From assembly GCA_013359135.1 (NCBI GenBank), contig JABWCN010000040.1:1-40763 (forward strand): a DNA stretch of 40,763 nucleotides. The letters are read 5' to 3'. Positions 5,037 to 35,603 of the stretch are shown one piece after another (position 1 is the first letter of the stretch; each line of letters starts with the position of its first letter). The DNA is from Pseudobdellovibrionaceae bacterium (GTDB lineage: Bacteria > Bdellovibrionota > Bdellovibrionia > Bdellovibrionales > Bdellovibrionaceae). Under the pieces are notes generated by a model. The model searched no databases. It was not told the origin of the DNA and saw nothing but the letters and a program-made list of their open reading frames with translations. The position numbers and the translations under genes were made by a program.

Positions 5037-6458
5037 ATGCAAATCAATTCGCATTTTTGGGATCAAGTAAAATCCAGTATGAAAAGTCGCAACTTAAACA
5101 ATAAGTTGTTAGACACCTGGTTAGATCCAATTGAATATTTAAATACAACAGGAAGTATTGAAAGGCCTAAAATTCAATTAGGAGTTCCAAATGCATTTCA
5201 TCAATATTTTGTGATAGAGAATCTTCAGGATAAGATTTATTCTGAAATTTCAAATATTTACAACTCTTCTTTTGAGGTTGAGTTTATAGTAACTGGTAAT
5301 AAAGTTCCACCACCACCGGAAAGTCCTCAGGCTTTAGAAGAGGCTATCTCAAACCAGGCTGCAACTCATTCCATGTCCAGTAAAAATCAATTTAATCAAC
5401 CGCAAAATAAAGATCGACACATCCATTCAGATCCTCTGAATCAAGAGTTAACATTTTCAACTTTTGTGGTTGGAAAAAATTCAGAATTTGCTCATGCGGC
5501 TTGTTTTAATGTAGCTAAGAACCCTGGTGGCCATGATTACAACCCACTCTATATTTATGGGCCTGTTGGGATGGGGAAGACACATCTTTTACATGCTGCT
5601 GGTAACTATATTAGAGATCAATATCCCCAAGTAAAAATTACATATATCTCTGCCGAAAGATTCATGAATGAGTGTATTGCTTCCATCCGTCATCATCAAA
5701 TGGATAAGTTTAGACTCAAATACAGAGAAAACTCGGATATTCTCCTTGTTGATGATGTTCAATTTATTGGCAAAGGAGAGGCTGTTCAGGAAGAGTTTTT
5801 CCACACTATTAACACTTTTATCGACAGGAAAAAACAGGTTATCTTAGCCTCTGACAGAATGCCAAAGGATATTATAGATCTAGAGGATCGAAATAGAACA
5901 CGTCTTGAACGAGGATTAATAGCTGATATAACTATGCCTGATCTTGAAACAAGGATAGCCATTCTCAGATATAAAGCTGAAAAATATAATGTGCGTATGT
6001 CAGAAGATGTGGTTAATCATATTGCCAGGATATCCAAACGTTCAATTCGAGAACTTGAGGGAAATCTAAAAAAAGTAAAAATGTTCTCGGAGTTACAAGG
6101 ACTGCAGATTGATTATGAACTAGTAAAAAGGATTCTTTCAAATCATGAAACCCAAACTATGATCAGCGTGGAAGAAATTCTTAGAATTGTTTCTGATCAT
6201 TTTAAAGTTAAAATTCAAGATTTAAAGTCAACAACTAGAGCTAAACAGATTGTTGTGCCTCGTCAAATAGCTATGCACTTAATTAAAAAGTTTCTTGATA
6301 AATCTTTAGTAGATATTGGTAAAGCTTTTGGGGGTAAGGATCACACAACTGTAATGAATGCCATTGAAAGGGTTAAGCATCTACAGAGTACAGATCAAGA
6401 TATGTTTAAGAATATTGAAGAGTTAGAGACTAGAATCCACAATATCACAGGGGTGTGA
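5037..6458 (+). CDS. dnaA: Chromosomal replication initiator DnaA
   Basis: DnaA is the AAA+ initiator that binds DnaA boxes in oriC, melts the origin and helps load DnaB. Domain I is about 1-85. A Gln/Asn/Ser-rich linker follows (about 90-135). Domain III holds Walker A GPVGMGKT (175-182), Walker B DILLVDDVQF (234-243) and the box VII region RTRLERGL (287-294). Domain IV is about 370-473 and carries the DNA-binding signature FGGKDHTTVMNAIERV (431-446). At 473 residues it is normal length. It starts at the ATG after GAGGGGTAAAAA. It has its own target sites immediately downstream in oriC, which may also allow autoregulation. Confidence 0.98.
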   Translation: MQINSHFWDQVKSSMKSRNLNNKLLDTWLDPIEYLNTTGSIERPKIQLGVPNAFHQYFVIENLQDKIYSEISNIYNSSFEVEFIVTGNKVPPPPESPQALEEAISNQAATHSMSSKNQFNQPQNKDRHIHSDPLNQELTFSTFVVGKNSEFAHAACFNVAKNPGGHDYNPLYIYGPVGMGKTHLLHAAGNYIRDQYPQVKITYISAERFMNECIASIRHHQMDKFRLKYRENSDILLVDDVQFIGKGEAVQEEFFHTINTFIDRKKQVILASDRMPKDIIDLEDRNRTRLERGLIADITMPDLETRIAILRYKAEKYNVRMSEDVVNHIARISKRSIRELEGNLKKVKMFSELQGLQIDYELVKRILSNHETQTMISVEEILRIVSDHFKVKIQDLKSTTRAKQIVVPRQIAMHLIKKFLDKSLVDIGKAFGGKDHTTVMNAIERVKHLQSTDQDMFKNIEELETRIHNITGV

Positions 6459-6700
6459 ATGTGGACTGTGGATAACCCCAGGGATAAATACCTGGGTTAA
6501 AATGTGGAGCTTTTAAATGGGGATTTCTCCAAAACCTAAGTTGACTTTTACAGATAGTTTATCCACATTGATAACCTAATAAATTCAATGTGTTAGTTAG
6601 TTAAAGGTCATATCCACAGCCCTACTACTACTACTATATATTTATATATAGTATAAGAATAATATAGATTTTAAGAATTTTTAATGAGGATGCTTCTTAA
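6459..6700. other. oriC: Chromosomal replication origin (oriC)
   Basis: The dnaA-dnaN spacer holds a perfect DnaA box TGTGGATAA (6467-6475), a perfect box TTATCCACA on the other strand (6559-6567) and a one-mismatch box ATATCCACA (6610-6618). Partial TGTGGA matches lie at 6460 and 6503. The last box is followed by a GC-rich GCC spacer (6619-6621), five consecutive CTA triplets (6622-6636) and an AT-only stretch that starts the likely unwinding element (about 6637-6680). CTA on this strand is the 3'-GAT-5' DnaA-trio on the other. That order (box, GC spacer, trios, AT-rich) is the known basal unwinding module of bacterial origins. All genes to the left run leftwards and the next ten genes run rightwards, as expected around an origin. 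Confidence 0.9.
6474..6498. repeat. Hairpin overlapping the first DnaA box
   Basis: AACCCCAGG and CCTGGGTT form an eight-base-pair stem with one bulged C around an eight-base AT-rich loop. It lies 16 bp after the dnaA stop and overlaps the end of the first DnaA box. No T-run follows, so it is a poor intrinsic terminator. It could be a structural element of oriC or chance. Confidence 0.4.
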
Positions 6701-6778
6701 AAAAAGATTCAAAGATTGAATGTAAATATTAAGTTGTAGAAACTAAAAAATTATTAGAGAACTTTGGAAAGAATATTT

Positions 6779-7885
6779 ATGAAAATTGAAATTGAAAAAA
6801 AAGACTTATTAAATTTAATTGGAAAAACTTTAAACATAGTTGATAAAAAAAATACAATGGCTGTATTGGTTAATGTTCTTTTGGATGCAGACCATGATCG
6901 TGTAAAAGTTTTTGCAACAGATTTGGAAGTGAGTTTAACAGACGAAGTATACGCTAAGGTAATTGAGTCAGGAAAAGTTGTTGTTAGTACGAAAAATCTT
7001 TTTGAAATATGTAAAAAATTGGATGAGGGAAAAATTCAATTTATTAAAAAAGAAAATAACTGGCTGGAAATAAAACAAGGAAGATTTTCATCAAGAATTG
7101 TTGGTGTAAGTCATGAAGATTACCCTATTTTTCCAACATACAACCCACAGTATTTTTTAAAAATGAATGCTTTAATGCTTAAAGAAATGATCGATAAAAC
7201 TATTTATTCGGTTTCAAATGATGAAACTCGATATCATTTGAATGGAGTTTATTTTGAAATAAATTCTCAAAATAATTGTAGAATGGTAGCAACAGATGGA
7301 CATCGCTTGAGCTTAGTAAATAAACAACTTGAGCAACTTAAGCATAATTTAACTTCTGGTGTAATTATACCAAGAAAAGGACTTTTCGAAATAAAGAAGA
7401 TTATTGAGAACAATACAGGAACAATAGAAATTGCTATAGAAGGTTCTCAGTTTTATTTAAAAAATGAATCTACTGTTTTGATGATTCGTTTAATTGAAGG
7501 TAAATATCCAAATTATCAACAGTTTATTCCACAGAAGTTACCTCTTAAAATTCTTGTTAATAAAAATGAATTTTTAACTTCTCTAGAGAGAGTAGCGCTT
7601 TTAGCTAATCAAAAATCAAAAGCTGTTTTATTGAATCTTGCAAATAAAAGAATGGAAATATCTTCAAATAATCCTGAACTTGGGGAGGCTAAAGAAGAAA
7701 TTGAGGTTGAATATTCAGGAAGTGATTTAAAGATTGGATTCAATGCAAGATATTTGTTGGACGTATTAGCAGCTATTGATGAAGAAAAAGTATTAATAGA
7801 AATTAATGATCATCTTTCACCTGGTGTTGTTAGACCAAATAACGATCCAAACTACACTTGTGTTGTAATGCCTATGAGAATATAG
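6779..7885 (+). CDS. dnaN: DNA polymerase III sliding clamp (beta subunit)
   Basis: DnaN is the ring-shaped clamp that tethers DNA polymerase III and other enzymes to DNA. The protein has the three-fold clamp repeat over 368 residues. Recognisable segments are the N-terminal MKIEIEKKDLLNLIG, the middle-domain ATDGHRLSLV (typical clamp motif), IPRKGLFEIKKII, EGKYPNYQQFIP and the C-terminal YTCVVMPMRI, matching the family's final VMPMR. The start at 6779 is chosen over an in-frame TTG at 6764 because GGAAAG lies at the right distance and the family N-terminus begins MK(I/F). It is the first gene after oriC, with recF 30 bp downstream. Confidence 0.98.
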   Translation: MKIEIEKKDLLNLIGKTLNIVDKKNTMAVLVNVLLDADHDRVKVFATDLEVSLTDEVYAKVIESGKVVVSTKNLFEICKKLDEGKIQFIKKENNWLEIKQGRFSSRIVGVSHEDYPIFPTYNPQYFLKMNALMLKEMIDKTIYSVSNDETRYHLNGVYFEINSQNNCRMVATDGHRLSLVNKQLEQLKHNLTSGVIIPRKGLFEIKKIIENNTGTIEIAIEGSQFYLKNESTVLMIRLIEGKYPNYQQFIPQKLPLKILVNKNEFLTSLERVALLANQKSKAVLLNLANKRMEISSNNPELGEAKEEIEVEYSGSDLKIGFNARYLLDVLAAIDEEKVLIEINDHLSPGVVRPNNDPNYTCVVMPMRI

Positions 7886-32429: not shown

Positions 32430-35400
32430 ATGATTTATAAAGTAATTTTTGTTTTTGTTTTTTTATTATTATCAAGAGCGATGTCAACATCAGCTGACAA
32501 TGAGCTTAGAAGTTCTATCCAGGCTTTGGGTAAATTTAATGGCAAAACTTATACGGGTGATTGTGAGACTAAAAACTTTTGCCCTCCTCTTTTGAAAAGT
32601 CTTTTAAAAGAGGACAAAGAAAATAGATTTTTAAATATTGTTGAAAACAGATATGGCGCTTGTCTTAACGAAACAAAGCAAAATAAATATTCGTTTTATG
32701 AAAAAAAAGAGCTTGTGAATTTTTATTCAAGCCAAGAGTTTCCAAACATGGGAAATGTTTATACTGCAATTATCAACAGATGTAGTCTTTCAAACCCTGA
32801 GGTTGATAACCAAATTGTAGCAAAGTATTTTTATTATCTAGCTAGAATTCAACAGGGACAAATTTCTGCTTTAGACGAGAAAGCCGCTATTGATATTAGC
32901 CTTGGCAAGGCCCCACTTTCTGATGTTAACTGTGAGGATTTAAAATTCCAAAACTCGATAGAAAAATGTAAGCAAGTTAAAAACTCTTGTAAGGATTTAA
33001 AAAGCGAGCAGGCCTCTGTCCAAGAGGCTGAAGCTGAACAAGAACGTATTGCAGAAATTAATTCACAGATAACAAAAATGTCTCAAAAAAAAGAATGGTT
33101 AAAAGATAGTATACCTTATGAAAAAATGCAAAAAGAAGAGTTGAACAAACAACTTGGAATTTTAAATTTTGAAAAAGAGCAGATTTTATCAAGAAATCCA
33201 ATATTGAAGTCCGAATCAATATATGGTCGTAGAGGTAATGATTTTAAGAAGGCTTATTTAGCTCAGCTAAAACAAAACTCCAACAAATTGAAAGATCTAA
33301 TTATACAGTCTAATTCTAAGACCAATTGTTTTACAGCTCAATCGACGACTAAAGATTGTAATGAAGACAGTTTTTTTAACTTTGTACAAGACTACACTCC
33401 TGAAATATCACTAGAAAATAAAAGTGCTCAACCTAATGAAAAAAAAGTAAGTGCTCAAAATTTTTTGAAACAACAACAGTGTTTACATAAAGGCAATTTC
33501 GAAAAAAAAGAATTATCAGCCTTATTGTGGCAGTCAACGTTTGATGCTGCTCTGACAATTGCAACTATGGGTTTGGCAACTCCAGTTGTTGCCGCTAGGG
33601 CGCTGTATACAGCAAGAGGAATGAGACTTCTTAATGCTTCTAAACAGATTGTAGGTTTTGCAAATGCTAGCAATTTTTCAGTTGGTGTTACTAAGGCAAT
33701 AGATCGTTGTTCTACTGAAAAGGTGAGCTCTGAAAAAGGATTTGAAACCAAAGAGATGGGCCAATCTTGTCAATTGATTTCTCCTTTAGCAACCAGAAGT
33801 TTTGTTAAAAAGATTGATGAGTGTGTCTTACTTGGTGCCATGGCCGCACTTGGTATGGCGCCGATGATTGCTAAATCTCTTCAGAGGGAGGTTGTTTCTG
33901 GAAAACTTACAAAGCTTGAAAATATTTTACTGAGAGAGGGAGTCAGTAAAGAAGAACTAGAGCTTGAGAGAAAAGCTTTAGCAATGGGTGCAGAGGCTAA
34001 AGTCCCCAAAAAATTAATTTCATCTAATGCCATGCTATCTGATGCTGATAGGAAAAAGAAAATTAAACAACAATTTGAAAATCTAAGTGTTGCCCAAGTG
34101 AATTGTGTAGTCGAAAAAGTACATACCATTGGTAGTGGAAACAGCGTTGCTCGTTACACCAGGATGCAAATTATTAGTAAATACAAGACAGCGCGAGAGG
34201 TTTGCAACATCAGTAAAGAAGATACAGAAGCTCTTTTAAAATTAGGTTTTGCGGGTGAGTTGCCCGAGCAAGCGTTTAAAGAAGCAGCCGCTGAATTTGC
34301 AAATCTTCTAGCAAAACCTACAATTCCGGTTGTGAGCGCTCATTCTTCTGGCAAGTTATTGCACGAATTGGAAACTGAAGAAATTTTAAAAAGAGTTGAT
34401 GATCTGAAACGACGAATTGCAGGTGAGCCAGATCCTTTAAAAAAAGTGGAATTTAGAGATGAAATCGATGAACTAATTCGTGAAGCAACTAGCCGCCCAA
34501 CAAAAGACACTGGATTAAAAATTGATAAAACTCCAGTAAGGTTAACTTCAGCAACTGACTCAAGCAGATCCACAACAACGGCGTTGACTTTATCAAGCAA
34601 TGCTAGAGCTAGGATTGTTTCTGAGGGTGGTTCTGAGTTCGAAGCATTAAATCATCAAATAATTCCTGGTAAGCAATATAGTTTTAAATCAGATACTCAT
34701 GGCGTTGGTAGTGGTGAGCTATTGAGATTAGATGATACAATGCCAGGAAATGTGCTGCTAAAATCCTTTGGAAAAGATGGCGGAGAAAAAGTAATTTCAG
34801 TACCAATGGAAGATTTAGCAATTACAAAAAAACAAATAGAAGCTATTCAAAGAAGTCAGGCGCCTACCACAAAAGGTGGTGGATCTGACTTTCAATCCTT
34901 GTTGCGAGGTCCAACTCCAGGATCTGCTAAACAGAGAGGTGTTGAAATAGCTGATAATCTAGCTAAGCAAGCAGGAAGATCTCCTTTGGATAAAGAAGTT
35001 GATGAGCTAAAGCTTTCTCGTACGAGTATTTTAGATGATAAAGGAGATCGACTTGCCAAATTAACCACTTTATCTGGGGAAGAACAAAAATATTTTAAAG
35101 CCTTGTATGAGATAGATACCTCAAAAATGAAACCCACTCCAGAGGAGTTTGCAGTCATTCAAAAGGCAAAAGAGATAAGAGCAAGCAAAGCTCAGAATAG
35201 AATGAGTGATCCTCAGGCAAGAAGATATTTTGAAAAAATTGAAGAAATAGAAAATGATCTTAGACAAGCTCCAGCAAAAATTAGAGCCAATGTACAGAGA
35301 CAACTAGAAAATATTAATAAAAGATCTGATTTTAAATATTTAACAGTGCCCCCAAAAACCAGCTTTGCTAGGGCGTTAGGAAAGGATAGCTTAACTAGTT

Positions 35401-35603
35401 ATGAGGCACAAGATCACACTCTTATAGAGAAAGTTTTAAAATTAAAACCTGATTTCGCGTACAATCAACTTGAGCCAAAAGATATGAATACTTTAGCTCA
35501 AGTCAAAAGCAAACTTGAAAAATCAGCAAGCGATGACCCTGCAAAAGAATGGTTCTTAAGTAGGCTTAAGTTGTATTTAGAATATTTTGAAGCCATAAAA
35601 TAA
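32430..35603 (+). CDS. Large exported protein of unknown function
   Basis: A 1057-residue product with a signal peptide (about 1-22) and no lipobox. Features in order: a Cys-containing N-terminal region, a charged helical/coiled-coil segment (about 190-255), two hydrophobic segments (about 370-395 and 464-484) that could be membrane or pore helices, and a segment (about 537-630, LSVAQVNCVVEKVHTIG through LLKLGFAGELPE). The last resembles a helical module I have seen in large bacterial exported proteins, but I cannot name it. The last ~350 residues are charged and low in Cys. It starts at ATG 32430, since an in-frame stop lies at 32415. The ribosome-binding site is weak. No homologue can be named from sequence alone. 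Confidence 0.75.
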   Translation: MIYKVIFVFVFLLLSRAMSTSADNELRSSIQALGKFNGKTYTGDCETKNFCPPLLKSLLKEDKENRFLNIVENRYGACLNETKQNKYSFYEKKELVNFYSSQEFPNMGNVYTAIINRCSLSNPEVDNQIVAKYFYYLARIQQGQISALDEKAAIDISLGKAPLSDVNCEDLKFQNSIEKCKQVKNSCKDLKSEQASVQEAEAEQERIAEINSQITKMSQKKEWLKDSIPYEKMQKEELNKQLGILNFEKEQILSRNPILKSESIYGRRGNDFKKAYLAQLKQNSNKLKDLIIQSNSKTNCFTAQSTTKDCNEDSFFNFVQDYTPEISLENKSAQPNEKKVSAQNFLKQQQCLHKGNFEKKELSALLWQSTFDAALTIATMGLATPVVAARALYTARGMRLLNASKQIVGFANASNFSVGVTKAIDRCSTEKVSSEKGFETKEMGQSCQLISPLATRSFVKKIDECVLLGAMAALGMAPMIAKSLQREVVSGKLTKLENILLREGVSKEELELERKALAMGAEAKVPKKLISSNAMLSDADRKKKIKQQFENLSVAQVNCVVEKVHTIGSGNSVARYTRMQIISKYKTAREVCNISKEDTEALLKLGFAGELPEQAFKEAAAEFANLLAKPTIPVVSAHSSGKLLHELETEEILKRVDDLKRRIAGEPDPLKKVEFRDEIDELIREATSRPTKDTGLKIDKTPVRLTSATDSSRSTTTALTLSSNARARIVSEGGSEFEALNHQIIPGKQYSFKSDTHGVGSGELLRLDDTMPGNVLLKSFGKDGGEKVISVPMEDLAITKKQIEAIQRSQAPTTKGGGSDFQSLLRGPTPGSAKQRGVEIADNLAKQAGRSPLDKEVDELKLSRTSILDDKGDRLAKLTTLSGEEQKYFKALYEIDTSKMKPTPEEFAVIQKAKEIRASKAQNRMSDPQARRYFEKIEEIENDLRQAPAKIRANVQRQLENINKRSDFKYLTVPPKTSFARALGKDSLTSYEAQDHTLIEKVLKLKPDFAYNQLEPKDMNTLAQVKSKLEKSASDDPAKEWFLSRLKLYLEYFEAIK

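Follow-up and report, generated by a model that had tools for sequence, protein, structure and literature searches.

Results

Gene order and origin features at the dnaA-dnaN locus

The window analysed here, a stretch of 40,763 nucleotides, is the whole of one contig (C84) from the draft assembly of a Bdellovibrio-like member of the Bdellovibrionaceae with a 3.84-Mb genome. On the minus strand we found mnmE, jag and yidC, together with rnpA and rpmH, whose positions are taken from the published gene order and not from a profile match of our own; dnaA, dnaN, recF, gyrB and gyrA follow on the plus strand. The encoded DnaA is 84-90% identical to that of genus mates; the nearest named records belong to Bdellovibrionaceae MAGs, and B. 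bacteriovorus strain kdesi shares 76% identity. The candidate origin lies between dnaA and dnaN, within this replication gene cluster (Table 1). The interval measures 320 bp, versus 225 bp in the closest relative (L002), and the extra 95 bp sits between the AT-rich tract and dnaN (6660-6778). Across the window, we found no parS-like palindrome and an Rfam search gave no match; a 1057-aa open frame at 32430-35603 had no Pfam match at 1e-5.

Table 1. Features of the dnaA-dnaN region, in window coordinates.
Feature	Position	Strand	Remarks
dnaA	5037-6458	+	473-aa initiator; TIGR00362, 465.8 bits, above cut-off
DnaA box GAATCCACA	6433-6441	+	inside the 3' end of dnaA; fits the B. bacteriovorus consensus NN(A/T)TCCACA
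Perfect DnaA box TTATCCACA	6467-6475	-	reads TGTGGATAA on the plus strand; points away from the trios
Perfect upstream DnaA box TTATCCACA	6559-6567	+	51 bp before the array-proximal box
Array-proximal DnaA box ATATCCACA	6610-6618	+	adjoins the GCC spacer
GCC spacer	6619-6621		between box ATATCCACA and the trios
Five DnaA-trios	6622-6636	-	plus strand (CTA)5 = CTACTACTACTACTA; trio strand 3'-(GAT)5-5'
AT-rich DNA unwinding element	6637-6700		84% A+T
dnaN	6779-7885	+	TIGR00663; ATG start picked by comparison with relatives; right origin flank

Box cluster, unique array and duplex stability

Single boxes prove nothing in this DNA, since one-mismatch matches to TTWTNCACA numbered 151 in the window, close to the 147 expected. 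Their clustering at the origin is above chance: the motif NNWTCCACA occurs at four sites within 220 bp, and the maximum was two both elsewhere on the contig and in 40 Markov simulations. The array sequence, CTACTACTACTACTA, was found once in the 3.84-Mb genome, at 6622, while its reversed control had no match; (CTA)5 was absent from all 40 Markov-simulated contigs. No 50-bp segment of the contig is less stable than the one that begins at 6635, at the array's end, with a nearest-neighbour dG of -45.0 (next distinct site, -49.4). Together, the unique array, the box cluster and the stability minimum at the same spot support the reading of this region as an origin. An inverted repeat (6632-6641/6644-6653) does not, on inspection of the aligned sequences by eye, persist in most relatives.

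The AT-rich tract and the sequence next to it could instead be mainly the promoter of dnaN, with the box as an autoregulatory site. One weak sigma-70-like match (6613-6642) fits such a role; promoter-like matches, however, numbered two against 2.8 expected from shuffles. A promoter would also leave a five-fold trinucleotide array at a fixed distance from the box unexplained, and the same interval has been mapped experimentally as the origin in B. bacteriovorus. We therefore regard a mainly promoter function as highly improbable.

GC skew agrees with an origin at this position. On this draft contig, which begins 5 kb left of dnaA and on which local skew partly tracks gene direction, the skew is -0.10 to -0.24 at 1-5 kb and positive at 6-16 kb, with the cumulative minimum at 5461, inside dnaA and about 1.1 kb from the array. 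The switch is thus local in the window; over a whole chromosome it was seen only in a complete relative, where 20 sampled stretches show positive skew between dnaA and about 1.9 Mb and negative skew elsewhere.

Comparison with the basal unwinding system and characterized origins

Under the published rule for a basal unwinding system (BUS), three or more 3'-NAN-5' trios must lie no further than 16 bp from a DnaA box, which may have up to two mismatches. Here, box ATATCCACA is followed after a 3-bp spacer by five GAT trios, so that within this genome all five carry the middle adenine. The polarity is also that of a BUS: the trio strand runs 3' to 5' away from the box, a plus-strand box being followed by plus-strand CTA.

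The closest characterized counterpart is in B. bacteriovorus, where Makowski et al. (2016; PMC5124646) used DnaA immunoprecipitation, DMS footprinting, P1 nuclease and replication initiation point mapping to place the origin in the same dnaA-dnaN interval; trios were noted, and bound boxes were found within the 3' end of dnaA as well. Our region shares with it the gene order, the NN(A/T)TCCACA boxes (including those in the 3' end of dnaA), a short GC-rich spacer, a GAT array beside the first box and an AT-rich unwinding element. It differs in belonging to another genus, with a DnaA about 76% identical. Makowski et al. counted four trios, whereas the Bdellovibrio-type origins that we aligned show five CTA.

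The B. subtilis incC BUS likewise combines a DnaA box, a short GC spacer, trios running 3' to 5' away from the box, an AT-rich tract, a distal phased box and a conserved single-strand pocket in DnaA. Its six trios are degenerate where the five here are identical; its boxes form a tandem pair where a single array-proximal box stands here; and the genome analysed here, unlike B. subtilis, lacks a DnaB_2-domain protein, while its relatives often carry C as the middle base. In H. pylori oriC2 (PMC8235120), a Gram-negative origin, five perfect trios beside a box are needed for unwinding; that origin, however, is bipartite, and the plus-strand middle T, described there as highly conserved, is the letter that changes most often in Bdellovibrionales. 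Among 2070 origins, Pelliciari et al. (2021) predicted modules of this kind in 85%, and they reported unwinding that depends on the trios for six further species, of which three are Gram-negative; it has been demonstrated for H. pylori, Synechococcus and Deinococcus.

Much of an earlier note on this DNA, written from its letters, is borne out by these results. It had proposed a compact oriC, which agrees with the location, box cluster, unique array and stability minimum; a match to the B. subtilis module, which the succession of box, GC spacer, trios and AT-rich tract confirms; and a setting outside Firmicutes, which the assignment to Bdellovibrionaceae upholds. Its positions for two perfect boxes and one near-perfect box, and for GCC followed by five CTA and an AT-rich stretch, are exactly those of Table 1, the first box being on the minus strand, and the skew plot that it called for shows a switch at dnaA from negative to positive. 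Its presentation of the site as a clear test case outside Firmicutes came too late to be a first: the B. bacteriovorus trios of 2016 and the unwinding shown in H. pylori, Synechococcus and Deinococcus precede it. The site adds one more well-formed origin to a known class, which had been described from this family before.

Conservation of the array across Bdellovibrionales

We compared the dnaA-dnaN intervals of 62 Bdellovibrionaceae and 59 other Bdellovibrionales (121 origins). Exactly (CTA)5 was present in 58 of the 121, and 90 had four or more CTA. Box and array were separated by 3 bp in 98 origins, by 4 bp in 20 and by 2 bp in three. The array is the module's most constant part, its register and spacer being near-constant in the 121 origins while the flanks vary. 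The comparison of this spacer across relatives that the earlier note suggested therefore shows a conserved array, and its description of five identical trios as unusually regular does not stand, given that nearly half of the order's sampled origins have the same run. Because the automatic anchor used to place arrays prefers CTA in one of the first two trios, trio 1 looks near-invariant in part through the anchoring itself.

The boxes are less uniform. Of the 100 relatives in which an upstream forward box is detectable, 88 have it at a distance of 51 or 52 bp, which resembles the phased distal box that B. subtilis requires. Across much of the order, in many families (for example L151, L162 and L181), the array-proximal box has decayed to TTATCAACG-like forms with the array intact.

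Three arrays (L142, L201 and L202) were missed by the automatic anchor and placed by hand from the box. The array of L142 (G046:C60), the most deviant in its family, reads CAA CGA CGA CAA CTA after the box TTTTCAACA and keeps the middle A in its last trio only. In L201 and L202, two members of one genus (G102 and G100) with genomes of 1.4-2.0 Mb, the array has decayed to TTA/ATA-like triplets, and this origin may be changing with genome reduction. Clostridial loci had no recognisable array beside dnaA, and hence gave no Firmicutes comparator. One record, L020 (CALQIT020000001.1), is titled as a Streptomyces griseus MAG; its dnaA product is 63% identical to the Bdellovibrionaceae DnaA described here, and the title looks wrong.

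These data bear on whether the CTA run might be a neutral trinucleotide microsatellite that lies near DnaA boxes by chance. The five perfect copies in this genome are what such a repeat could look like. Slippage, however, would vary the copy number, and array length and register are near-fixed over 121 origins and dozens of genera, with even imperfect arrays retaining five trios; a drifting microsatellite would not hold its copy number over such depth and is ruled out. The array also stands 2-4 bp from the box everywhere and is unique in the genome. We give the microsatellite reading almost no credence.

Changes at the middle trio base

The window itself contains pure CTA only, so the comparative point comes from its relatives. 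Counting changes by parsimony on a DnaA-DnaN tree, we found 22 changes in the first letter of CTA, 47 in the middle letter and 39 in the third, 23 of the last in the final trio; twenty bootstrap trees gave 45-48 middle-letter changes. On the trio strand, the middle changes comprised 28 A>C, 12 A>T and one A>G, plus six reversals or onward changes. Unpolarised plus-strand T changes in a set of 118 origins were T/G in 32 cases, T/A in 10 and T/C in one. In close pairs, the neutral shares were 28% (intergenic) and 36% (fourfold sites) for T/C, and 29% and 27% for T/G. Setting parsimony events against these raw pairwise neutral differences, we obtained Fisher p values (intergenic and fourfold, respectively) of 6e-9 and 3e-10 for the T/G excess and of 4e-5 and 3e-7 for the T/C deficit. 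These data show that the central letter is the most changed in Bdellovibrionales, and that it changes non-randomly.

The middle adenine is not conserved across the order: in 23 of the 121 origins, no more than two middle-A trios stand in a row, and 14 of these 23 reach three if A or C is allowed. Such a pattern suggests that A and C are the best-tolerated middle bases in the order, as expected from the base-capture model.

Could the A>C excess reflect GC-raising mutation or selection on duplex stability, and not base recognition? A:T to C:G changes do raise local GC. Duplex stability, however, cannot explain the spectrum, because an A:T pair becomes a G:C pair under A>C and A>G alike: A>G stabilises about equally, yet it occurred once against 28 A>C, while T/C makes up 28-36% of neutral T changes. 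An origin of the excess in GC content or stability is thus very unlikely.

The trio pocket of DnaA and the strand that is read

In B. subtilis, Asn187 of DnaA holds the central trio adenine via its amine, and cytosine is a better substitute for that adenine than G or T, both in vitro and in vivo (Nat Commun 2023, PMC10721633); the authors asked if other DnaAs read other sequences. The dinucleotide-pocket residues that they name are present in the protein analysed here, where E183, N187, I190, I193, R202 and E228 correspond to E207, N211, I214, I217, R226 and E253. Among the 62 Bdellovibrionaceae DnaAs, the equivalents of N187 and E228 are conserved in 62/62 and those of E183 and R202 in 60/62, and the I190 and I193 equivalents are hydrophobic in all. 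Residues were mapped on what we take to be the B. subtilis ISM segment, matched only to the residue letters that PMC10721633 names. The pocket seems unchanged, and the natural substitutions in the trios seem to follow its chemistry.

Several individual DnaAs stand apart. In L117 and L118, the only two sampled members of genus g12, Gln stands at the position of Arg202, the residue contacting the trio guanine in B. subtilis; both have CGA as last trio and a TTTTCCCCG box. Second, divergent DnaA-like genes lie outside the oriC locus in L143 (G033:C93:18429-19709; 33% identity) and L144 (G050:C1:2346795-2348063; 24% identity, with an internal stop).

A search of the genome for helicase-loading proteins found DciA (PF05258) and no DnaB_2 domain (PF07261; DnaD/DnaB-type). 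In B. subtilis, DnaD reads 5'-TnnT-3' on the strand opposite the trios, fixing the same T column; since a DnaB_2-domain protein is absent here, an origin of the B. subtilis DnaD type, with a DnaD recognition element, is not expected.

Minus-strand A/C and plus-strand T/G are one pattern, and assigning it to a strand therefore rests on the known polarity of the module. The array might accordingly be a plus-strand element, 5'-AC-3' at every third base with T or G between, bound by a helicase-loading or other single-strand protein and not by DnaA on the minus strand. DnaD in B. subtilis is a precedent; seen from the plus strand, the middle changes preserve T or G exactly as, seen from the minus strand, they preserve A or C, and within trios 2-4 changes are more frequent in the T column than in the C and A columns. 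It is, however, precisely the TnnT motif that T>G changes lose. The genome is without a DnaB_2 domain, and the residues of the DnaA pocket that binds the minus strand are conserved. We consider a plus-strand reader unlikely, and favour DnaA as the reader of the minus strand.

Discussion

Our comparison makes it very likely that the region is the chromosomal oriC of this member of the Bdellovibrionaceae, with a DnaA-box/DnaA-trio basal unwinding system whose middle base would, order-wide, be A or C. We propose the following course of events. DnaA would bind the boxes through its domain IV, and the plus-strand array-proximal box would seed a DnaA oligomer that extends across the GCC spacer to the minus strand of the array, where each of the five 3'-GAT-5' trios would enter the single-strand pockets of neighbouring DnaA molecules. 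Opening of the duplex, presumably trio-dependent, would then proceed into the AT-rich tract. The box 51 bp upstream probably raises the local DnaA concentration by looping, like the phased distal boxes of B. subtilis. For helicase loading we propose DciA, because no DnaB_2-domain (DnaD/DnaB-type) protein was found.

The comparative result on the middle base matters more than the site itself. We think it rather likely that Bdellovibrionales use the code 3'-G(A/C)T-5', in which the central A has repeatedly given way to C, the other base that offers an exocyclic amine to the DnaA asparagine. The freedom to do so perhaps comes from the absence of DnaD: without a second reader, the T column would be free to vary as far as DnaA allows. 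A strict amine rule has against it the 12 trio-strand changes to T, which lacks an exocyclic amine.

In the literature searched we found no report of natural trios with a central cytosine. The middle letter is regarded as conserved in both B. subtilis and H. pylori, and the H. pylori authors describe the middle T of the complementary strand as highly conserved (PMC8235120). The pattern in Bdellovibrionales agrees with a cytosine result known only from B. subtilis mutation, and would provide an independent evolutionary read-out of the bases that the DnaA pocket accepts, in a lineage that varies the very base described as conserved. Origin finders that require a middle adenine would miss or truncate real arrays, as 23 of 121 origins fail a three-in-a-row rule in register. 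If the A/C code is true, it would explain some origins scored as lacking trios and would supply evidence from natural evolution for the base-capture mechanism.
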